Below, in pieces: positions 6,193-25,500 of a stretch of 39,167 nt of DNA. Under the pieces are notes generated by a model, which was not told where the DNA came from, ran no database searches, and saw nothing but the letters and a program-made list of their open reading frames with translations. The stretch comes from Bacteroidaceae bacterium. GTDB lineage: Bacteria > Bacteroidota > Bacteroidia > Bacteroidales > Bacteroidaceae. Every line of letters starts with the position of its first letter. Positions within the stretch are counted from its first letter, which is position 1. The stretch lies in assembly GCA_017536695.1 (NCBI GenBank), contig JAFXGX010000031.1, positions 1-39,167 of the forward strand, given 5' to 3'. The position numbers and the translations under genes are program-made.

Positions 6193-6241
6193 GTGGCACA
6201 CACGACCCAACCTTTTCAAACCACAACAAACAGACACCTTT

Positions 6242-14865: not shown

Positions 14866-15040
14866 TTAATTAAAACGTTTATAATTAAAAAAACTCTCGT
14901 AATTCTTTTATCAAATGGCCGATACAATCAACCACAATTACAATATTCAGCAGCCCTGCACGCCACAAGCACCAACGCCATTATCAACAGCACGAATATC
15001 ATTTTTGCCTTTTTCATACTTCGCCTACTAAACATCAATG

Positions 15041-15071
15041 CAAATTTAACAAAATGTTTTTAGATACAAAA
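15041..15071 (-). promoter_or_regulatory. Promoter of gap
   Basis: On the minus strand TTTTG (15071-15067) and TAAATTTG (15048-15041) are 18 nt apart, a good Bacteroidetes promoter. It predicts a leader of about 180 nt for gap. The rest of 14854-15182 holds no gene. Confidence 0.65.
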
Positions 15072-15182
15072 CAAATAACTGCCTAAAAATATAAAAAAAG
15101 AACTTTTCCTCCTATTTAATATTACTTTGCGGCCGCCGAAAACAAAAGATGGGAGCAAGCACAGATTTTTTCAATTATTTTT

Positions 15183-15363
15183 ACTATCTTTGCGCTGAAG
15201 CGCGAAAATAGGCTGCACTCGCTGTGAAAAACGTTGAAACAAGTTTCATGTTTCTTGCTTGTTTGCAACTATCTTTGCGCTGAAGCGCGAAAATAGGCTG
15301 CACTCGCTGTGAAAAACATTGAAACAAGTTTCATGTTTCTCGCTTGTTTGCAACTATCTTTGC
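15183..15363 (+). repeat. 85-bp tandem repeat carrying -7 boxes, upstream of mscL
   Basis: Two units, 15183-15267 and 15268-15352, differ at two positions (ACGTTG/ACATTG and TTCTTGC/TTCTCGC). A third partial start ACTATCTTTGC is at 15353-15363. Each unit begins with TATCTTTG, a -7 box, so the array offers three promoter-like starts at 85-nt steps before mscL (15435). Inside each unit are GCGCTGAAGCGC, a small palindrome, and AACAAGTTTCATGTTT. Diverged single copies are at 728-815 and 3199-3260. Confidence 0.85.
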
Positions 15364-15434
15364 AATCATTAATAAAACACGCTGTTCCGACAGGGAACAC
15401 AGAGCAAGAGTTTAACTTAAAATAAGAATATATT

Positions 15435-15908
15435 ATGGGATTCCTTAAAGATTTTAAAGCCTTCGCAATGAAGGGCAATGTCGTAGACATGGCTGTCGGT
15501 GTAATCATCGGTGGTGCATTCGGTAAAATCGTCACTTCAGTTGTAAATGACATAATCATGCCTCCTATAGGTCTGCTGGTCGGCGGTGTAGATTTCAAGG
15601 ATCTCAAGCTGGTTCTTCAGGCAGGTCAGGAAGAAGTCCTTAACGAGGCCGGCGAGGTAATTACCCCTGCCGTTGCCGAGGTTACTCTCAACTATGGCAA
15701 CTTCCTGCAGCAGACATTCGATTTCCTCATCATCGCATTCTCTATCTTCTGTATCATCCGTCTCATAGCCAAGCTTGGCGAGATGACCAAGAAAGAAGAG
15801 GAGGCAGCAGCTGCAGCCGCAGCCCAGGCACCGGCTCCTGCACCAGAGCCAAGCGCTGAAGAGAAGCTTCTTACTGAGATTCGTGACCTCTTGAAAGAGA
15901 AGAAATAA
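15435..15908 (+). CDS. mscL: Large-conductance mechanosensitive channel MscL
   Basis: A 157-residue inner-membrane channel that opens under high membrane tension and releases solutes on osmotic downshock. The conserved N-terminus [20 protein letters not shown] leads into TM1 ([23 protein letters not shown]). TM2 is [20 protein letters not shown] (about residues 96-115). The C-terminal helix [14 protein letters not shown] is preceded by an alanine/proline/glutamate-rich linker. The periplasmic loop is longer than in E. coli (157 versus 136 residues overall). It is monocistronic, behind the tandem promoter repeat and before a strong terminator. Confidence 0.97.
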
Positions 15909-15921
15909 CAACGCGCACTAA

Positions 15922-15956
15922 CGAGAGTGAGACCTTGCGGTTTCACTCTCGCTTTT
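15922..15956 (+). terminator. Terminator of mscL
   Basis: Arms 15922-15934 and 15939-15951 pair over 13 bp with one G-T pair and loop TTGC, followed by CTTTTT. Confidence 0.85.
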
Positions 15957-16070
15957 TAATAATCTTTTTTTTACCAGCCATACACAATTATTAAGCATTT
16001 AGCGCTTGTAGAAAAAAAGAAAAAACACTATTTTCGCAACAAATAAAAAACCATTAATTATATCTGATAT

Positions 16071-17378
16071 ATGAAACAGGACATGATTGTTATTCTGGAC
16101 CTCGGCAGTCACGAGAACACCGTACTTGCAAGAGCCATCCGCGCCCTTGGCGTCTACAGCGAAATCTATCCGCATGACATCACTGTAGATGAACTCAAGG
16201 CACTCCCCAATGTAAAAGGTATCATCATCAACGGCGGTCCCAACAACGTCATCGACGGTGTTGCCATTGATGTAAACAAAGAGATATACTCGGCAGGGTT
16301 CCCCGTCATGGCGGCAGGTCACGACAAGGCACTCTGCGACATCAGGATTGCCCAGATAGGCAACGACGTAGAAGAGGTGAAGGAGGCTGTCAAGGAGTTC
16401 GTTCTTGACACATGTAAGGCCGAGAAGAACTGGAACATGACCAACTTCGTGAACGACCAGGTAGAGCTCATCCGCCGTCAGGTAGGCGACCGCAAGGTAC
16501 TGCTTGCCCTCTCAGGCGGTGTCGACAGTTCTGTTGTGGCTGCGCTTCTTTTGAAAGCCATAGGCAACAACCTTGTATGCGTTCACGTCAACCACGGTCT
16601 CATGCGTAAGGGCGAGAGCGAGGCTGTCATAGACGTATTCAGCAAGCAGCTATGCGCAAACCTTGTATATGTCGACGCTACTGACCGTTTCCTCGACAAG
16701 CTTGCCGGTGTTGCCGACCCTGAGCAGAAACGCAAGATTATCGGTGGAGAGTTCATCCGCGTATTCGAGGAGGAAGCACGCAAGCTTGACGGCATTGACT
16801 TCCTTGGCCAGGGTACCATCTACCCCGACATCGTGGAGAGCGGCACCAAGACAGCCAAGATGGTCAAGAGCCACCACAATGTAGGCGGTCTCCCCGAAGA
16901 CCTGCAGTTCGAGTTGGTAGAGCCCATCCGTCAGCTCTTCAAGGATGAGGTACGCGCATGTGGTCTTGAGCTCGGCTTGCCATATGACATGGTATACCGC
17001 CAGCCATTCCCAGGTCCCGGTTTGGGTGTACGTTGCCTCGGTGCCATCACACGCGACCGTCTTGAGGCATTGCGTGAGGCAGACGCCATCCTTCGCGAAG
17101 AGTTCAAGATTGCCGGCCTCGACAAGACCGTATGGCAGTACTTCACCGTAGTGCCCGACTTCAAGTCAGTAGGCGTACGCAACAATGCACGTTCATACGA
17201 CTGGCCAGTCATCATCCGCGCCGTCAACACCGTTGACGCCATGACAGCGACCATAGAGCAGATAGAGTGGCCCATATTGTTGAAGATTACCGACCGCATC
17301 CTGGCCGAAGTCCCCAACATCAACCGCGTCTGCTACGACATGTCGCCAAAGCCAAGCGCCACTATTGAGTGGGAGTAA
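16071..17378 (+). CDS. guaA: GMP synthase with intact ATP-pyrophosphatase and degenerate glutaminase domain
   Basis: A 435-residue protein; normal GuaA is about 505-525. It starts like a class I glutamine amidotransferase (VILDLGSHENTVLARAIRAL; IIINGGPNN at 51-59). Where the catalytic cysteine should be (normally VLGICYG) it reads VMAAGHDKALCD (79-90). About 75 residues, including the His-Pro-Glu part of the triad, are missing. The synthetase half is complete: PP-loop LALSGGVDSS (146-154), VNHGLMRKGE, SGTKTAKMVKSHHNVGGLP, QPFPGPGLGVRCLG and the C-terminal KPSATIEWE. It should amidate XMP using free ammonia or ammonia from a separate glutaminase subunit. The frame is clean, so this is a domain-level change, not a frameshift. 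Confidence 0.93.
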   Translation: MKQDMIVILDLGSHENTVLARAIRALGVYSEIYPHDITVDELKALPNVKGIIINGGPNNVIDGVAIDVNKEIYSAGFPVMAAGHDKALCDIRIAQIGNDVEEVKEAVKEFVLDTCKAEKNWNMTNFVNDQVELIRRQVGDRKVLLALSGGVDSSVVAALLLKAIGNNLVCVHVNHGLMRKGESEAVIDVFSKQLCANLVYVDATDRFLDKLAGVADPEQKRKIIGGEFIRVFEEEARKLDGIDFLGQGTIYPDIVESGTKTAKMVKSHHNVGGLPEDLQFELVEPIRQLFKDEVRACGLELGLPYDMVYRQPFPGPGLGVRCLGAITRDRLEALREADAILREEFKIAGLDKTVWQYFTVVPDFKSVGVRNNARSYDWPVIIRAVNTVDAMTATIEQIEWPILLKITDRILAEVPNINRVCYDMSPKPSATIEWE

Positions 17379-17384
17379 TAAAAG

Positions 17385-17410
17385 AAGAGAGCTTCGGCTC
17401 TCTTTTTTTA
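17385..17410 (+). terminator. Terminator of guaA with UUCG tetraloop
   Basis: AAGAGAGC-TTCG-GCTCTCTT (17385-17404) followed by a T-run. It begins 7 nt after the guaA stop. Confidence 0.9.
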
Positions 17411-18050
17411 TTACTCCTTCCGAAGCAATTACAAAGCAATGGTCACGCGTAGCATAGCCAAAGGTTATGCCGCGTGGGTTGCGGTCGCGAAGCGATTGTA
17501 ATTGATTCAATGGGATGGCCCCGAAGGGGACAACTATTTTACTACAAGAACTGCCTATATAGAACATAGGAACAATAGTCGCACGCAGCGTGGATAAAAG
17601 TCACGCCACGCGGGGTGCGATTGCCGAAAACACCTGCCAACGAGTTAAAACCAAACTTGTTTGAGTTTTTACAACGAGTGCAGCAGTGTTTCAACAAAGT
17701 TAAAGGCAACAAAAGGTTGGTCAATGGGATGGCCCTGAAGGGGACAAAGACTATATTCCACAAAAGATGGAACCTCAAGGTTCCATCTTTTTATTACTCC
17801 TTCCGAAGCAATTACAAAGCAATGGTCACGCGTAGCATAGCCAAAGGTTATGCCGTGCGGGATACGGTTGCCACGGGCAACAATAAGTTGGTTCAATTAT
17901 CGCGAAGCGATGATAGAGGCCATTGTTTAGCAATAGTCACGCGAAGTGTCGCAAAGTGACACCGCGTGGGTTGCGATTGTCAAAGACAAAAACAATGGAC
18001 TCAATGGGATGGCCCCAAAGGGGACAAATCCTTACTATAAGAACTACCTT
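17406..18050 (+). repeat. Array of about four diverged repeats in a gene-free zone
   Basis: Four related segments lie roughly at 17406-17555, 17570-17750, 17789-17900 and 17915-18050. A near-exact block of about 67 nt at 17406 recurs at 17789 (offset 383), including CTTCCGAAGCAATTACAAAG and CGTAGCATAGCCAAAGG. A second shared block TCAATGGGATGGCCC-GAAGGGGACAA occurs near 17508, 17722 and 18001. The first and third copies both start directly at the T-run of a hairpin terminator. A reverse copy is at 4352-4387. I see no credible gene in 17411-18381. Confidence 0.75.
17762..17791 (+). terminator. Orphan terminator inside the repeat array
   Basis: AAAAGATGGAACC and GGTTCCATCTTTT pair perfectly over 13 bp around TCAA, with further T after. 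No gene lies within 380 nt upstream, so it is either a relic of a lost gene or a travelling part of the repeat. Confidence 0.7.
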
Positions 18051-18074
18051 AAAATCACACGCAACGCTTCAGTT

Positions 18075-18118
18075 CTCCCTCTTTGATAAGAGGGAGAACC
18101 CGAAGGGGGAGGGAGTTC
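18075..18118 (+). repeat. GAGGGAG-type palindromic element
   Basis: CTCCCTCTT-tgat-AAGAGGGAG with flanking GAACCCGAAGGGGGAGGGAG. Related elements occur at 20046-20175, 35304-35345 and 35641-35682. Confidence 0.5.
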
Positions 18119-18159
18119 TTACGTGGTTACTCTGTACGCAACACAGCAAAATTTTGTTT

Positions 18160-18250
18160 TCACGAACCCACTACCGCTCGGCAAAGCAAGTAAACTTTCT
18201 TTGCGCTCGCTTAATCGTGGCTTTCCAATGTTAGTGTTAGCACAGTTCAA
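18160..18250 (+). repeat. Interspersed repeat, GCAAGTAAACTTTCTTTG family
   Basis: Matches 20203-20275 over about 75 nt (AATAAACTTTCTTTGC there, AGTAAACTTTCTTTGC here, both followed by CTCG-TTAATCG and GTGTTAGCAC), and 2998-3080 over its first half. Its reverse complement resembles 841-920. Confidence 0.6.
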
Positions 18251-18278
18251 AGAGTGAAAAGAGAGTTTTCATTATAAA

Positions 18279-18312
18279 AGTTATTGCTCCCGGCTTCGCC
18301 AGGAGCAATAAC
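18279..18312 (+). terminator. Hairpin upstream of the CoiA-SLOG gene
   Basis: AGTTATTGCTCC (18279-18290) pairs with GGAGCAATAACT (18301-18312). No T-run follows on the plus strand; on the minus strand the hairpin is followed by TTTTATAATG. It insulates the gene at 18382 from the repeat zone. Confidence 0.55.
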
Positions 18313-18329
18313 TGTATTTATGAATATCA

Positions 18330-18361
18330 CTTGATTAAATGAATATAAATAAATATTTTTG
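18330..18361 (+). promoter_or_regulatory. Promoter of the CoiA-SLOG gene
   Basis: CTTG at 18330-18333 and TATTTTTG at 18354-18361 are 20 nt apart. The predicted transcription start is about 14 nt before the ATG at 18382, so the gene has its own promoter and a very short leader. Confidence 0.6.
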
Positions 18362-18381
18362 TACTACATAAATTAAGTTCA

Positions 18382-19791
18382 ATGGGCGGCGATATAAAAT
18401 ACAAATATGCTTTTGATGAAAAAGGTAATATTGTTTCAATAGAAGACCTTACAAAAGAAACAAGCAAACAGCAAACATTCAAGTGCATTGTTTGTGGCAG
18501 CGAATTACGTCCAAGAGCTATTGGCAGTAAACAAAGAAGAGCGCATTTCTATCATAAGGGAGTTGTTTTGTGCAATGGAGAAACTTATTTACACAAACTT
18601 TGCAAATTGTATATAAAACAACATTTTGACAATTCGGATAGTTTTAATATCTCTTACAAGGTATCTAAAAATTGCAGTGAACGCAATTGCAACCTTAGGA
18701 ACTGTAACTGCCATAAGGAAGACGAAATAAACCAAATTGATTTAAAAGAATTCTACGATACTTGCATAATAGAAACAAACATTAAAGGATTTGTTGCAGA
18801 TTTACTACTTACAAATTCCAAAGACACAAGTATTCCACCTATCCTAATTGAGATATGTGTTGCCCATCCTTGTGAAGATATAAAAAAGGAATCAGGATTA
18901 AAAATCATAGAAATATCCATAAAATCAGAAAAAGATATAGAAAACCTATTTTCAGATGGAACATTGTCAGAGAACTTAAACAAATGGATTGGGAATAGAA
19001 TTGAATTCATTTCTTTTAAACGCAACATAGAAGAAAAATTAATTTCTCCTATATCAAGATTTATATACCTACCAACAATCAGAACTAATCCTTTTTTCTG
19101 CGACTTCAAATGCGATATTGCAAACTACAAACTAATTGCAAATTCAGTTATTGAACTTAATATTATTAACTCAAAACATCAACATGAAAACAACAACTAC
19201 ACTATTGCATGCAATTGGCTAGCCAAACATATTGAATTTAAAAGATGTAATATTTGCAAATTTTATTATAAAACAACAAACAACGAAGAAGTTTCTTGTA
19301 GATTAAGTACCAAATACGACAAACCAATATTTCCTATGCTGGAATATGCCGAAAAGTGCAGTTGGTATCAAAAAAACACATTTAGTTTCAATGAAGATGA
19401 ATATAAAATATTAGAAATAAAAGAGAATAACTTCAATAAAAAAGATGCCTACTATGTTATGATAGCAGGAAGTAATAATTTTGACAACTATACTTTTTTT
19501 GAAGAAAAATGCAACCATTTACTTTCAGAAAAAATCAAAACACATAATGTAGTTATACTTGTTCAGAGTTCAAACGAAATAATCAATCTCGTTAAACAAT
19601 TCTCTTATAAACACAACCTACTTGTCATTCCCTTTAACACCATATGGGGGAAATATGGACCTATAGGAACAGAGATGTACAAAAAAACAGATGCTCTCGT
19701 TGCATTTTGGGATGGCAAAAGCGAATTCACAAAATCACTTATAGAAGAAGCTAAATACTATGGATTAAATGTTGAGGTATATCTTATTTAA
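18382..19791 (+). CDS. CoiA-like nuclease fused to a SLOG/DUF2493 domain
   Basis: A 469-residue AT-rich single gene. Residues 1-80 form a CoiA-type zinc ribbon: C35xxC38, then RRAHFYHKG and a CNGETYLHKLCKLY helix. Residues about 98-190 hold a cysteine cluster (CSERNCNLRNCNCH) and a nuclease-like core with Asp140 (GFVADLLLTN) and Glu157 (ILIEICVAH), as in CoiA and PD-(D/E)XK enzymes. A four-cysteine patch (CNWLAKH, CNICKF, CRLST, CSWYQK) lies in the middle. Residues 356-469 match DUF2493/YspA-like SLOG domains: YYVMIAGSNNFDNY, VIPFNTIWGKYGPIGTEMYK and DALVAFWDGKSEFTKSLIEEA; the usual GGARGAD loop is replaced by VQSSNEI. No competence genes adjoin. Function unknown; an anti-phage role is inference. 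Confidence 0.7.
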   Translation: MGGDIKYKYAFDEKGNIVSIEDLTKETSKQQTFKCIVCGSELRPRAIGSKQRRAHFYHKGVVLCNGETYLHKLCKLYIKQHFDNSDSFNISYKVSKNCSERNCNLRNCNCHKEDEINQIDLKEFYDTCIIETNIKGFVADLLLTNSKDTSIPPILIEICVAHPCEDIKKESGLKIIEISIKSEKDIENLFSDGTLSENLNKWIGNRIEFISFKRNIEEKLISPISRFIYLPTIRTNPFFCDFKCDIANYKLIANSVIELNIINSKHQHENNNYTIACNWLAKHIEFKRCNICKFYYKTTNNEEVSCRLSTKYDKPIFPMLEYAEKCSWYQKNTFSFNEDEYKILEIKENNFNKKDAYYVMIAGSNNFDNYTFFEEKCNHLLSEKIKTHNVVILVQSSNEIINLVKQFSYKHNLLVIPFNTIWGKYGPIGTEMYKKTDALVAFWDGKSEFTKSLIEEAKYYGLNVEVYLI

Positions 19792-19952
19792 AATACGAAG
19801 AAACACGATGAACAGATTTTAGTTTTCAATAGAATTGCATCTTTTCGACACCAGTTCTTGACACCAGTTGCCGTTTCAAAAGGCAAAATTTTGTGTTAAA
19901 GTATTGATGATAAAGTTAAAATATTTAACCCCAATTTAACTGTTCTAGTCGA

Positions 19953-20012
19953 GTAGTCGTAATGAAAAATAAGTTCGGAATTAATTCCGAACTTATTTTT
20001 CATTACGACTAC
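19953..20012. terminator. 60-bp perfect palindrome downstream of the CoiA-SLOG gene
   Basis: The 30-nt half GTAGTCGTAATGAAAAATAA then GTTCGGAATT is followed immediately by its exact reverse complement, with no spacer. As RNA it folds to a stem of up to 28 bp with loop AATT. It lies 161 nt after the stop at 19791 and is the strongest terminator candidate there, though no T-run follows. Confidence 0.6.
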
Positions 20013-20039
20013 CGAGGGTTTCAATGAGTAATAGTAGCA

Positions 20040-20280
20040 CGTAGCACCAAACTCCCTCCCCCTTCGGGTACTCCCTCTATAAACAGAGGGAGAGTTGTTG
20101 TGCCGTGCGGGTACTACAGCTCCTCCGCTTTTTAAAGAGGAGGTGTCACGTAGTGACGGAGGAGTTCAAAATAGAGGGAGAGTTATAGTGCCGCATGGGT
20201 GGCGCTTGCGAAGCAAATAAACTTTCTTTGCACTCGTTTAATCGCTGCTTTCGTGCGTCAGTGTTAGCACTCTTCAATAA
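20040..20280 (+). repeat. Cluster of interspersed repeats before the exported-protein operon
   Basis: Contains ACTCCCTCCCCCTTCGGGTA, a GAGGAGG/CCTCCTC palindrome around 20110-20165 with GTCACGTAGTGAC at its centre, and a GCAAATAAACTTTCTTTGC element at 20210 matching 18180. With the palindrome at 19953 these fill 19792-20330; no gene is seen in it. Confidence 0.5.
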
Positions 20281-20330
20281 AAACAAAAACCACCGCTCAC
20301 AGCCAAACGTAAATTAAAGCCATTGAATTG

Positions 20331-20362
20331 TTTCATCAATTACGGAAATTGCTCTATATTCG
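20331..20362 (+). promoter_or_regulatory. Promoter of the exported-protein operon
   Basis: TTTC at 20331-20334 and TATATTCG at 20355-20362, 20 nt apart, a near match to TTTG-TAnnTTTG. It places transcription start near 20369, which rules out a start codon upstream of it and supports the ATG at 20389. Confidence 0.5.
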
Positions 20363-20388
20363 CATTGCAACACAAAAGAAACATCAGA

Positions 20389-21582
20389 ATGAGACTCCTT
20401 ATTACTTTAACGGCAATGCTCATTGCATTGGCTGCTCCAGCGCAGAAGCAGCGCTTCATGTATGACGGAGAGAAGAAAATATACTACACATCGGTTGCCG
20501 ATGCCGAGAACAAACTGATAGACCACATAAAGAAGAACAAGGGTTACAGAAGTTTCCCCGAGAGGTTCTTTGCATACCTGATAAGCAACGATGAGCGTTG
20601 CTTCACATACGACTTCAGCAAGTTGCAAAAGGCTGCGGAGAGTGCAACAGCAAGACCTTTCAAGGTAAGTACATCCAAAGACGGCATGTTGCGTCTCTAT
20701 TCATGGGACATTAACGGCGGTACCATGTCGAGTTTCTCGGGAATTACATCGTACAAGGATGGAGGCAAGGTATACACGCACACTTTTATCTCAGGAGAGA
20801 TTGACATGGACGATTATATGAAGGAACCCGACGCTTCGAGCAAGACAGGTGCAATAGCATGTGGGGCTCACGACATTAAAAACATGAAACTCGACAGTGG
20901 GCAGACTGTATATGTGGTATCTGCGTACTCATCGGGTTCTGGGACATTATATTGCTCAACACTTGAAGCATACACAATAGAAAGCGGTGAACTTAAGACG
21001 TATGACCTATTTACATATGGTCCAAAAAAGAGTCACTGGATATCATATGACTGTAACCCGTGTGGCGTATATATAGGTGACATTGAATTTAACGGCGGTG
21101 ACCTTTATATACCCGAGACACGTGAGGGATACAACCCGTATGGCGGGGACCAGGAGACCGGGCGCCGCCTCTATTTTCAGTTTGACGGCAGCACATTCAA
21201 CTATGTAGGGATTGATTACCCCGAAGGACTCAACAAGAGCCTGTGCAACTTCGGGCACAATATGATTATCATTGAACAGGCACCATGGATAATACGCATA
21301 GACATAATGCCCGACGGCAAGGCAAGATATTCCTCTTGGAAAAACAAAAGCAGCAGGGAGACTCCCGACATGGTTGTGAGGAACGGCGCCCACACCTCAG
21401 AACCGGACCCCGAAGACAGGGAGCAAAGCACCGAAAAATACACATTCAGCAATGGAGAATACACCTATGAAGTCTCATGGACACAGAACTACTTTTTCAA
21501 CCCCATAAACCCACAAGACTGGAAACTTGTGGTCAAGAGAAAGGGGAAGGTGCTGATGACACTGAAGGAAAAGAAAAAGTAA
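20389..21582 (+). CDS. Exported protein of unknown function
   Basis: A 397-residue protein starting MRLLITLTAMLIALAAPAQK, a clear signal peptide with cleavage probably after AAPAQ. The mature part is rich in Tyr, Gly and Ser, predicted mainly beta (VYVVSAYSSGSGTLYCSTLE; GVYIGDIEFNGGDLYIPETR), consistent with a periplasmic or surface beta protein. No lipobox, no membrane helix beyond the signal, no catalytic motif I recognise. The start is fixed by the signal peptide and by the promoter at 20331-20362; an in-frame extension to 20323 would begin upstream of the promoter. A DUF4421-like gene follows after 17 nt in the same operon. Confidence 0.75.
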   Translation: MRLLITLTAMLIALAAPAQKQRFMYDGEKKIYYTSVADAENKLIDHIKKNKGYRSFPERFFAYLISNDERCFTYDFSKLQKAAESATARPFKVSTSKDGMLRLYSWDINGGTMSSFSGITSYKDGGKVYTHTFISGEIDMDDYMKEPDASSKTGAIACGAHDIKNMKLDSGQTVYVVSAYSSGSGTLYCSTLEAYTIESGELKTYDLFTYGPKKSHWISYDCNPCGVYIGDIEFNGGDLYIPETREGYNPYGGDQETGRRLYFQFDGSTFNYVGIDYPEGLNKSLCNFGHNMIIIEQAPWIIRIDIMPDGKARYSSWKNKSSRETPDMVVRNGAHTSEPDPEDREQSTEKYTFSNGEYTYEVSWTQNYFFNPINPQDWKLVVKRKGKVLMTLKEKKK

Positions 21583-21599
21583 AATACAGCAGCGCGTGC

Positions 21600-22588
21600 A
21601 TGAAAAAGATTCTGTTCATACTCTTTGTATTCGCTATTACCGACTGTTTGCCCCTGCAGGCGCAAACAGGTTTCTTTGGCAACATATGGGAATGGTTCAC
21701 AAGAGAAAAAAGTGACACACTGTATGTAACCCGTTCGGCACATCCCTTCAGCATTAAGGCAAGGACAACGACAATCATCAACACCAGCGACCTTGAATGG
21801 CAGAAACACGACAGCAGCCTTTCCTTGTTGGCACAGCCCACATTCAAGGCCGGTTTCCACATCAGTTACAGGGGGATTGGTTTGGGTTCCAAAAGGACGT
21901 GGGTAATCTTTTCAGCAAGAAGGGCGATAAGAACATGGAATTGTCGGCCAGTGCCTATGGAAGAGTGTTGGGCGGTGACTTCTCATACAGTACGTCGAGC
22001 CATTACAGCATAAACAAGTTGAATGGTGTAATATGCGACAAGGATATTGAAGGCGTGAAGAGCCGCAGAATGTATGCCAATGCTTATTATGTATTCAACA
22101 ACCGCAAGTTCTCCTACCCCGCAGCACTGACACAGAGTTACCGGCAGAAAAGGAATTGCGGAAGCGTCATTGCAGGGTTATCATTCATCCATAACACGCT
22201 TGAACTGGAACCCGACGCCATGTCGGCAGCCACAGAAGGCAAGATTCCTGTTTCACACATCATCAAACACTCGGTATACAATAGTTTGAGTATAAATTGC
22301 GGTTACGGTTACAATTGGGTAATAGACAGGCAATGGATGTTGCATGGCACGGCATTGCCTTCGTTATCATTCATCAACAAGTTGGAATACAAACTGGGAT
22401 ATGACACCGTATCCAAGAGAAACAACTTGGATATAGGTTGCATAGTACGTTTTGGCGCATTGTGGAATTACGAGCGCTACTATGCCGGTTTCACAGCCCT
22501 GATGTACGTGTACGGTACCGGATACAACAACATGTCCATGACCGACATGTATGCCAAGATACAGATGTCGGTGGGGGTAAGGTTTTAG
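21600..22588 (+). pseudogene. DUF4421-type outer-membrane protein gene with a frameshift
   Basis: The ATG at 21600 gives a signal peptide MKKILFILFVFAITDCLPLQ and a frame that leaves the family sequence after ISYRGIGLG. The family sequence resumes in the -1 frame (FQKDVGNLFSKKGDKNMELS through to the C-terminal MSVGVRF). Adding one T after 21888 (GGTTCC to GGTTTCC) restores one frame of about 330 codons. The restored protein has the DUF4421 signature ANAYYVFNNRKFSYPAALTQ then SYRQKRNCGSVIAGLSF and ends in an aromatic residue like outer-membrane barrels. The second part is well preserved, so the shift is recent, phase-variable or a sequencing error. No canonical -1 slippery heptamer is at the site. 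Confidence 0.75.
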
Positions 22589-22596
22589 CAGACACG

Positions 22597-25500
22597 CTAC
22601 TCCTTCAGGAACCTTACACTGTGCTTGCGGCCGCCCCACTCCCAACTTATGATATATGTGCCGCCGGGCAAATGAGACAAAGACTGTTCGGTAGTTGCCT
22701 TGAAGGTGTATAGCAGGTAACCGCCTGTGGTATATATGCGCACGTCCACCGTAGCCATTGCCTGTATGTCGGGTGAGACAAAACCAACGGTTTGCCGTTC
22801 CTTGTTATAACGCACGGCATAGTCTATATCCCGTTCATAACCAATGGGGTCTACAGCGGTTACCCCGGTTACCTCAACGAGTGACCATGCAGCATTGCTG
22901 TCGTCTGTTACAGCCGGCAGTACCCGGTTGCCGGCGTCAACCTCAACTCCAACAACTCCTGCAATGCTTGTGAGTGTAAAGAGTGTGTCAGCGACCTGGG
23001 TGGCAACAAAGCAACCGTTATCGCCATGCGGTGTATCATCGAAAACAAACATGGGCACTGTCTCATCAGAAACACTCAGATACGCCCCACCGCTGTAGAT
23101 ATTATAACAGTTCGGTTTTCCTTCAACAGACTGCAGCACAAAATGCTGGGCAGGATTGCCGGGTTCGGGAACCTCAACGGTAAGTCCAAAAGCGGTCGAC
23201 AGGTTCACTCCACCCGCGCTGCGCAAATTATACGTCTTTGTACAATCAACGGGGTTCAACAGTGCAAAAGCCGCCATTGCTTTACCGAGCAAAGCAATGG
23301 CATTGTCATATTCAACAACTGTTTCATACACTACTCCACGAAGCGAGGCCACAGTTTTCTCCAGCGCATTGACATTTGCGGTTGAATGCTGCAACGGCCT
23401 GTCACCCACCCACGACTGCGGCAAGGCAGCAAGCATATCCCCGGCCTCCTTCACCAATGCGACAAGTTCGGCAGCCTTCGTTTGCAGTTGGTTATCCTCA
23501 CCTACCTGTCGCGCCTCGAGCAACCACTCGCCAAAAGCATTGCTGCCCAATTGCGTCTCGTGCTTGTTGCCATAGACCTTTGAACCCTCATCGGTATATG
23601 TAGTAGCGAATACTCCGTTTACAGCATTTATGCGGTAATGGTCGTCCATTGGAAGTATGGTAAAAGCGGCATTGTTTTCATTGTATATCTCCTGGTACCC
23701 GTACATGTGCCACTGGTTCATTGTACCCAATGATACATATAGTCCATTGCACGATTTTATGCGGTATTTCCCATCTTCGCTTGAAGGTTCAAAGATAAAA
23801 TGCTGGGAGTTGTTTTCTGGTTCATATGTTCCAATACACACATTTTCTGTCGTGACATTGAGCACAAAACCGCTGTCGCGGTGCCTGAGCACATATTGCT
23901 GCATGGGCGAAGGTACATTAAGCACGCGTGCACTCTCCAAGGCATTCGCCAGGTTCACATTCCGCAGGACATAATCGTCCTTGACTGTGGATTCAAAACT
24001 GCGGGCGTCGGCAACGGCCCGGCGCAAAGTGTCTACCTTGCCGCTATTGTAAAGGAAAGGTGCCTCACCCACATTCCATGCAGTGAGTGAAGCCAAGAAG
24101 GTCTCGGCCTCGCACACGGTTGCCATAAGCATGTCCTTAACATCATCGGGAACGGCACCGGGTACCGATTCTTCGGGGACAACACGCCATTGACAGTTGT
24201 TACTCACAGAATTCATGTCGTCGTTGGTGTATGCTATCACTGGATTGCCGTTCTCATTTGTACCCATGGAGTTATTTACGACAAAGTTTGTGTATGCATT
24301 TATCATGTTGTAGTTTCCGTTTTCGTTCACAGTAAAGAGTTGCCACAATTGCCTTGTATCCTTGACATCTATAGCAGCAAGGTTCAATTGTGTGGCAGCA
24401 ACCCCCACATCAGAAGGGTCATTTAACGCCATTCCTGTACCTTTGTTAATGAAACGGCAGTATACTCCTTCTTTCTCAACTTTCCACAGTTGAGTGTTAC
24501 AATCGGGTTTTGGTGTGTTTACGACTATTCCCTTCCCGTCATCACTCACGTCGAGCACCATGTTATTCCCTTTGTTATATATGCGGTAATAGAACGAAGC
24601 ATCCGGTTCAAACGGCAATAACTCACCCGGAACCTCCCCACCACCTCCAATATTGACGCTATCACCATTGACACGTGCAGCAAAAAGTGATGTCAGGAAC
24701 TCGGCATGATCGGTAATAAACTCCTTCAACTGTGTAATGTAGTCGGTATAGGTTGTGTAAAGGAACACTTCGTCATAGACCCTTGAACTGATAGAGTAAC
24801 GCGAGTAGTTCAATTGTTGAGACTCATCGATGTGCGCAGCCATGCTGTCTATGTAATTCAGGAGATAAGCCTCAAGACCATCGGCAACATTTCTTGTCCA
24901 TGCGTCGTTAACAGCCTGGTTGAACCATGGGTCGGTTACCAGTCTCCGTACCCAAACTTTTGCAAGGTCCTCGCCCAACGCTTCATCGGCCATGCTGCTA
25001 TAGGTCATGTCGCCCACACGTATGCAGTTGTTGTAGGCAATGTCATAGTCCCACAATGGACCAAAGTATATTTTGGGGTCATCCTGCTCCTTGTAAATGT
25101 ATGTGCTCCAGAAGCCGTCGGGATTCGCGCTCAATTCCGTTGCAATGTACCACGCCACCAGAGTAGCCGAATCGGTCATTGCTCGGTAACCTGTTTCGGG
25201 GTCAGTGAAATCGCTGCTGAAGAGAGCACGCTCATAACTATCGACATATTCGCTTATGTAATCCTTCTGGGCTTGGTTAATGACATCTTCATCGGGAGAT
25301 TTCACTGTAACAAGCAGCCCTTTGCCTGTTGTAAAGTACACCGGTTCCGAACCGGCAAAGCCATCAATCTCAAGCAGATAACCGCCGGTGATGTTATCAT
25401 ATTCGTCGGCCAGGTAATCCTGTTCAAAAATCTCCACACGCTTATTATCGACATTCACCTGGTCGGACACCTGATAGTTGCCCACATATGTACCGTTGAT

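Follow-up and report, generated by a model that had tools for sequence, protein, structure and literature searches.

Background

In the Thoeris system, the effector ThsA is built as a SIR2 domain followed by a SLOG domain, and has a TIR partner gene. In phages, SLOG domains have been described in fusion with nucleic-acid enzymes, for example HNH and 3'-5' exonuclease (PMC9503650). Members of the CoiA family (COG4469; PF25164, PF06054) have an N-terminal zinc ribbon and then a PD-(D/E)XK-type domain, with an active site described as PD-EXQ (PMC1189080), and among the 21 systems obtained in E. coli by selection for phage defence one contains a CoiA-domain protein (Vassallo et al. 2022, PMC9519451). 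Here we analyse a single gene in which a CoiA-like ribbon and nuclease are fused to a SLOG-fold domain. It lies at 18382..19791, forward strand, in a 39,167-nucleotide stretch of a Bacteroidaceae bacterium (contig JAFXGX010000031.1, positions 1 to 39,167), the whole of which we call the window. Searches of the literature for CoiA together with SLOG found nothing, nor was any published account of the fusion found. The reading that we tentatively favour is of a mobile one-gene cassette whose product would most likely be a restriction-like defence nuclease.

The window protein resembles ThsA in that an effector domain is joined to a C-terminal SLOG fold, but the effector is of nuclease type, the ligand loop is eroded and Pfam finds no SIR2 in the protein. 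With the phage fusions, as they are described (PMC9503650), it shares the pairing of SLOG with a nucleic-acid enzyme, while being CoiA-like, chromosomal and eroded in its loop. Its N-terminal ribbon and the probable PD-(D/E)XK-type domain behind it resemble those of the CoiA family, yet it gives no PF06054 match, its relatives mostly lack Gln at the third catalytic position, it carries an extra four-cysteine cluster as well as the SLOG domain, and its distribution is patchy and mobile. Residues 354-469 share fold and overall sequence with DUF2493/YAcAr (PF10686, SLOG superfamily) and recover free-standing YAcAr proteins of relatives; unlike those, the domain is fused to a nuclease, has eroded ligand-loop motifs and falls under the Pfam cut-off. 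The likeness to the E. coli system, where a CoiA domain is used in phage defence, is one of description, the main text of that paper naming no SLOG domain (PMC9519451).

The gene, its parts and its anchor are as follows.

16071..17378, forward: guaA-like gene, 435 aa, anchoring the cassette site in the genus
18382..19791, forward: CoiA-like nuclease-SLOG fusion gene, intact from ATG to TAA, 469 aa
18484..18573, forward: zinc-ribbon region, CoiA_N-like, residues 35-64 (C35, C38, H55, F56, H58, C64)
18577..19020, forward: PD-(D/E)XK-like nuclease domain, residues 66-213
18799-18801, 18850-18852 and 18883-18885, forward: putative catalytic codons D140, E157 and K168
19246..19359, forward: four-cysteine cluster in the C-terminal part of the core (C289, C292, C306, C326)
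19441..19788, forward: SLOG-fold domain, residues 354-469, ligand-loop motifs eroded

Exchange of the gene at the guaA-linked site

Comparison of the window's genome (G000) with others in a set of 44 genomes of the genus offers a clean natural experiment: G000 and G019 have common flanks and different cargo, G000 and G037 common cargo and different flanks. Ahead of the fusion gene, the collinear stretch of G000 and G037 shows about 81% identity (in blocks of 5809 and 2086 bp), whereas the block at 18121-19954 is 98.3% identical over 1834 bp and its coding part 99.86% identical, with 2 of 1410 positions differing. Taken singly, GAPDH is 93.9% identical, mscL 72.0%, guaA 86.6%, the leader 89.4% and the trailer 97.3%; the G037 contig stops 143 bp past the shared block. 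Because the leader of G037 is identical to the window's only from the right arm of a hairpin onward, one edge of the recent exchange may fall within that hairpin. In G019, which is 97.9% identical to G000 in guaA and 99.7% in GAPDH (631 bp of it), the slot holds a different gene, of 206 aa, flanked by copies of the leader (90% over 132 bp) and of the trailer (81%) that can still be recognised.

The gene and its immediate flanks have been exchanged between genomes at the same guaA-linked site, and horizontal acquisition of the fusion gene is strongly supported. A preliminary description of this DNA had suggested acquisition, citing among other things the AT-richness of the gene against its neighbours; the AT-richness is real (G+C content 0.27-0.32 within the gene and 0.43-0.57 across the flanking genes, in 500-base windows), and the case made by G037 is stronger than the one first put forward. 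A viral origin was considered and rejected, since alignment A1 recovers no relative among viral contigs, and nowhere in the phage and plasmid records searched is 80% or more of the window protein covered.

The 435-aa guaA paralogue is missing some 90 glutaminase-domain residues relative to the GMP-synthase model, and many genomes of the genus contain full-length matches to this form, at 88-100% identity. Another contig of the window's genome (G000:C9) carries a further guaA-like frame that is longer, at 521 aa, and 50% identical in its C-terminal part.

The ribbon and nuclease core

The open reading frame (ORF) is a single gene, as first described, and it is the only one of at least 100 aa on its own strand from leader to trailer, in the window as in G037. 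Computation gives the domain order: the zinc ribbon comes first, then a probable PD-(D/E)XK-type fold, then the four-cysteine cluster and last the SLOG fold. The motifs named in the preliminary description are all present (C35/C38, RRAHFYHKG, D140, E157, further cysteines, GSNNF and GPIGTEMYK).

Family databases place the window protein itself below their thresholds. CoiA_N (PF25164) reaches 20.8 bits (E 2.8e-4; cut-off 26.3), CoiA_nuc (PF06054) gives no match up to E 10, and the Pfam matches are all sub-threshold, among them an uninterpretable one to DUF5055 (22.3 bits, cut-off 25). NCBIfam assigned no family, PADLOC-DB 2.0.0 gave 0 families up to E 10, a sequence search of the PDB found none, and PDB profile searches with the core and SLOG alignments gave weak, apparently unrelated matches. 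Among scanned relatives, CoiA_N lies above cut-off in nine (L040, L032, L023, L029, L045, L016, L013, L098 and L100), under it in L021, L025, L034, L101 and L102, and is unlisted for L017 and L024. The N-terminal 165 or so residues match, by tblastn, plasmid genes annotated as "competence protein CoiA family" (E 3e-11 and 1e-8), and proteins annotated as hypothetical match the same region with E down to 3e-13.

The core alignment comprises 24 rows, the window and 23 relatives, spanning Bacteroidota, Pseudomonadota, Campylobacterota and Cyanobacteriota. H55, F56, H58, L70, H71, C98, E131, D140, E157, K168, E177 and C292 are invariant in all of them, and since H55, F56, H58, D140, E157, K168 and E177 are among these, the ribbon and nuclease motifs are not a matter of chance. 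The PD-EXQ form of the active site is missing from the window protein, where position 159 is C, and just 3 of the 24 rows have Q there. The Asp, Glu and basic residue of a PD-(D/E)XK site are found in every row as D140, E157 and K168, the last at a non-canonical position, and a literal P-D occurs in six wider relatives (alignment A7). Foldseek, given residues 1-213, ranked SfsA (0.15) and EndoMS (0.21) at the top, neither significantly; we take both to be nuclease-fold proteins. The full model was uninformative (best E 1.5e-2, a homoserine dehydrogenase), and what is said here of folds rests on a second look with VIA, limited to re-ranking Foldseek's own list.

The SLOG domain

PF10686 matches neither the window protein nor its isolated C-terminal 131 aa, and is sub-threshold in the fused relatives L021 (3.6e-3) and L025 (5.9e-5), while free-standing homologues recovered by the window's C-terminus match it strongly (L009 1.7e-14, L018 1.1e-20). 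The last 115 or so residues also match places in phage genomes (best E 4e-9). The predicted structure matches a SLOG fold in the VIA re-ranking, DprA being a weaker match than YpsA and ThsA. The proposed fusion of a CoiA-like ribbon and nuclease to a DUF2493-type SLOG domain is thus supported by fold and by the Pfam matches of relatives; checked against the profiles suggested for it, it stands through CoiA_N in relatives and PF10686 in free-standing homologues, the window protein itself being below cut-off for the one and without a match to the other.

We take SGxxxGAD to be the ligand-loop motif of DUF2493/YAcAr. It is retained, together with SxGT, by the free-standing L009, L010 and L018; the GAD is lost in all six of the aligned fused rows, where SxGT is altered too, L023 keeping the G and losing the T and the other five losing the G. 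The replacement of the GGxxGxD loop noted in the preliminary description holds throughout these rows. Four inter-group pairs allowed omega to be computed over the SLOG domain, giving 0.19-0.40 at dS values close to saturation (1.4 to 2.4), and the window and L021 are 55% identical there as against 74% in the core. As purifying selection persists while the canonical loops are eroded, the domain has been retained for some role, though probably not for its usual ligand, and the erosion makes simple gating by a nucleotide signal, as first proposed, less likely. Positive selection on the domain was set aside: L021 and L022 differ by 7 nonsynonymous changes to 1 synonymous (omega 1.76; core 8:8), counts too few to bear it.

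Relatives and origin of the fusion

A scan of genomes from 84,980 species with one peptide pattern, which surely missed some relatives, gave 27 loci besides the window. The SLOG domain is present in six (L020-L025), all from Bacteroidales of the Bacteroidaceae or Prevotellaceae, with L020, L021, L022 and L024 from ruminant guts; L035 is interrupted by a contig end before its C-terminus. Within the genus the fused gene occurs in 4 of 44 genomes, G000, G001 (locus L021), G031 (L022) and G037 (L020). Some part of the window protein is matched in 10 of 149 other genomes among relatives, and the core profile in 17 of 394 other genomes of the phylum, several of these weakly or partially. CoiA_nuc (PF06054) is matched in 0 of 61 relatives' genomes and in 3 of 14 control genomes. 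These patchy matches exclude the possibility that the homologues are only vertically inherited competence genes.

In a tree of 31 rows (omitting L035, L037, L038 and L046) the seven fused proteins and the core-only L026 form one clade with 100/100 support, so that one fusion and one loss suffice; in this tree the fusion has a single origin. L026 (7998-11262), the sole member of the clade without SLOG, has a Schlafen-group-3 helicase gene (PDC-S41, a PADLOC candidate) 101 bp downstream, as though the SLOG domain had given way to a helicase acting in trans.

Four core genes, one of them the fused L025, have directly upstream (0-46 bp) a small gene with an Xre/HTH_3 C-terminus that is likely a regulator of the core gene:

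L025 6724-7236: small Xre/HTH_3 gene
L028 7497-7988: small Xre/HTH_3 gene
L029 7494-7985: small Xre/HTH_3 gene
L043 7516-7986: small Xre/HTH_3 gene

L190 and L191, of about 560 aa and from another family of Bacteroidota, are a second fusion type, in which the ribbon-nuclease core continues into a long C-terminal region of another kind that bears a cysteine ribbon itself. In L182 (2-2118) the core gene stands directly before a gene that reads, by eye, like type I restriction hsdM.

Leader, trailer and cassette array

The flanks of the gene contain the following elements.

18122..18366, forward: LEAD, shared cassette leader, recurring upstream of unrelated genes
18268..18324: conserved hairpin inside the leader (GTTATTGCTCC...GGAGCAATAAC)
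18354..18361, forward: possible promoter -7 box TATTTTTG, judged by eye
19843..19954, forward: TRAIL, shared cassette trailer, starting with the att-like core TTTCGACACCAGTTCTTGACACCAGT
19843-19868, forward: core, two GACACCAGT direct repeats
19953..20012: perfect 60-bp palindrome at the end of TRAIL

The hairpin and the palindrome, by which the gene was first said to be framed, are real, and the hairpin and the repeats are parts of a genus-wide cassette array. Partial matches included, TRAIL is found in 21 and LEAD in 22 of the 44 genomes. Throughout the genus, the genes that leader and trailer enclose downstream of guaA are unrelated to one another, and array genes occur in both orientations. 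In 26 loci and the window, 18 forward genes have a TRAIL match no further than 60 bp from their stop codon. In 13 of the 18 the match starts within 10 bp of the stop, while in G000 and G037 the distance is about 50 bp; the genes that precede it are, by eye, of about eleven kinds. Several other units bear, again by eye, terminator-like hairpins at the position of the palindrome.

The stem of the leader hairpin is nearly constant at 19 sites in the genus loci examined (22 rows in the list, three being the opposite strand), a constancy partly built in because the search pattern requires part of the stem; other copies of the leader misfit the pattern. As for the promoter that the gene was said to have of its own, TATTTTTG fits, by eye, the Bacteroides -7 consensus TAnnTTTG and is a possible -7 box. 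Rfam gave nothing above gathering score over 15000-23000, and a tRNA search of the window found none. Between guaA and the leader lies a zone of short direct repeats (17396-18050), with a 93-nt repeat present twice and a 23-nt unit counted five times over the stretch searched; other genomes of the genus have related copies in the corresponding position.

The att-like core and nearby recombinases

The part common to the sites is a core of 24-26 bp with the two GACACCAGT repeats. Allowing up to 6 mismatches, 34 copies were found in 19 of 24 loci (187,110 bases, most of the loci chosen for carrying the repeat or guaA), where shuffling leads one to expect 0.2; the five without it are G031:C14, G003, G033, G035 and G006. 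Among the 24 loci of the genome scan from L023 to L046, there were just two matches, both at 6 mismatches. In guaA-anchored loci every core is on the guaA strand, and in 7 of 19 of these a core lies 125-242 bp past guaA; the window is not one of the seven, and its unit retains the right core only.

The guaA gene is an integration site of islands. In three of five genomes searched (G043, G014 and G039) guaA is adjoined by a tyrosine recombinase gene (PF00589 over cut-off), followed by a gene for a protein of 295-296 aa and a serine recombinase gene, and in G043 and G014 then by cassette units. This three-gene set looks like the parent element of the array:

L163 829-4337: tyrosine recombinase, 295-296-aa protein and serine recombinase
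L164 1942-5450: the same set
L091 guaA+304 to +3867: the same set

The core arms in G002 and G038 resemble attB, yet leader and trailer occur further on, and no integrase was seen there; those in G043, G014, G018 and, less closely, G039 resemble attL, and position 6202 of G043 resembles attR.

The guaA-side array resembles those of cis-mobilizable elements (CIMEs) or of integrons. As in both, it has tandem units, each followed by a conserved site, and in G043, G014 and G039 a tyrosine recombinase at a fixed locus; it differs from integrons in its shared leader with a hairpin, in having genes in both orientations and in lacking the integrase. An integron proper was rejected: the integron integrase model TIGR02249 is over cut-off in 0 of the 44 genomes (incomplete drafts), and its sub-threshold matches occur in 44 of 44, equally with 14 of 14 controls.

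Defence context

Elsewhere in the array the cargo includes an HNH protein with similarity to TagI (2.3e-3) and, more strongly, to a restriction enzyme specific for 5-methylcytosine (4e-7); lipoprotein genes are also among the cargo, and in G037 the interval from guaA to the leader contains a HipA_2 kinase gene. A cassette gene of 355-356 aa in G017, G032 and G036 (loci L168, L171 and L094), whose leader is the same and ends 18 bp before the start codon, has the motif PDIVFFK...FVIEMKKP and apparently, judged by eye, encodes an HsdR-N-like PD-(D/E)XK nuclease; it has no match in the PDB. Core-only relatives adjoin AbiH (L039), type III restriction-modification genes (L034) and the Schlafen-group helicase (L026), and L040 has cas2 and probably cas1 nearby.

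Against a defence role, the count of known defence genes around the relatives shows a trend only: PADLOC matches in 11 of 76 near proteins and about 4 of 75 distal ones (Fisher p 0.10, not significant). In addition, every PADLOC match of E 1e-20 or better with an identified owner is beside a relative without SLOG; for three of these strong matches, individual scans did not establish the owner. The two sets were built differently, the near one hand-chosen as 76 of 144 neighbour ORFs with doubtful and distant ones dropped, the far one a random 76 of 114 minus one also in the near set. The near count is at least 11, made up of 8 individually scanned proteins and one each for MTase_III, Cas1 and PDC-S02 (owner unknown), from the best 25 of 90 families, and the far count is of 4 distinct family names among 12 families.

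Competing explanations

A defence role is nevertheless plausible, given the patchy distribution, the other nuclease genes in the array and the published CoiA-domain defence protein. In the cassette reading, ribbon and nuclease would bind and cut foreign or damaged DNA, with D140, E157 and the displaced K168 as candidate catalytic residues, and the SLOG domain, as it changes faster than the core, would be the part for recognition or switching, more probably sensing an altered ligand, DNA or a phage protein than the standard ADP-ribose signal because its canonical loops are eroded. A ThsA-like effector, in which SLOG binds a cADPR-type signal and turns the nuclease on, seems unlikely in view of the loss of GAD and alteration of SxGT in the six fused rows; moreover, NCBIfam named no TIR among ten window proteins scanned, a subset of its ORFs, and the gene is alone on its strand between leader and trailer. 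Still less probable is a helper in DNA uptake or recombination, with a CoiA-like nuclease and a DprA-like SLOG module processing incoming single-stranded DNA: the distribution is patchy and cassette-borne, the fold comes closer to YpsA and ThsA than to DprA, the SLOG loop is eroded, and CoiA_nuc is missing from the 61 genomes of relatives searched. The nuclease might also serve the cassette platform selfishly, for example by processing recombination intermediates, and the gene does adjoin repeats like recombination sites; but unrelated genes occupy the same slot in other units and relatives outside the genus are, apart from the two weak matches in 24 loci, without core repeats, so that we consider this very improbable.

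How the cassette moves is a separate matter. It is a substantial possibility, if one short of even, that the array is not a site-specific cassette system at all and that the genes move by ordinary homologous recombination between dispersed intergenic repeats. At 100-245 bp, the leader, the trailer and other such repeats have the length needed for homologous exchange, and most of the arrays examined lack a recombinase. Against this, it is the short core that the sites have in common, and the core arms of G002 and G038 on one side and G043 and G014 on the other combine as attB, attL and attR. For the mobile cassette we would suppose a tyrosine recombinase acting at the 24-26 bp cores, which might be supplied by elements like those of G043, G014 and G039. 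The fullest form of the proposal goes further: a tyrosine recombinase not of integron type would run an integron-like array past guaA in a ruminant-gut genus of Bacteroidaceae, swapping single genes with a leader hairpin between strains at the core; the array would double as a library of defence genes; and the CoiA-nuclease-SLOG fusion would be a new one-gene defence effector. Taken as a whole we regard this as doubtful, though possible.

Implications

If these readings are true, CoiA-type nucleases, known from DNA uptake, would have been turned into mobile effectors whose SLOG domain serves a new purpose, and a cassette system other than the integron would be spreading single genes in gut Bacteroidales. 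Candidate defence genes could then be found directly, by reading what sits between leader and trailer.
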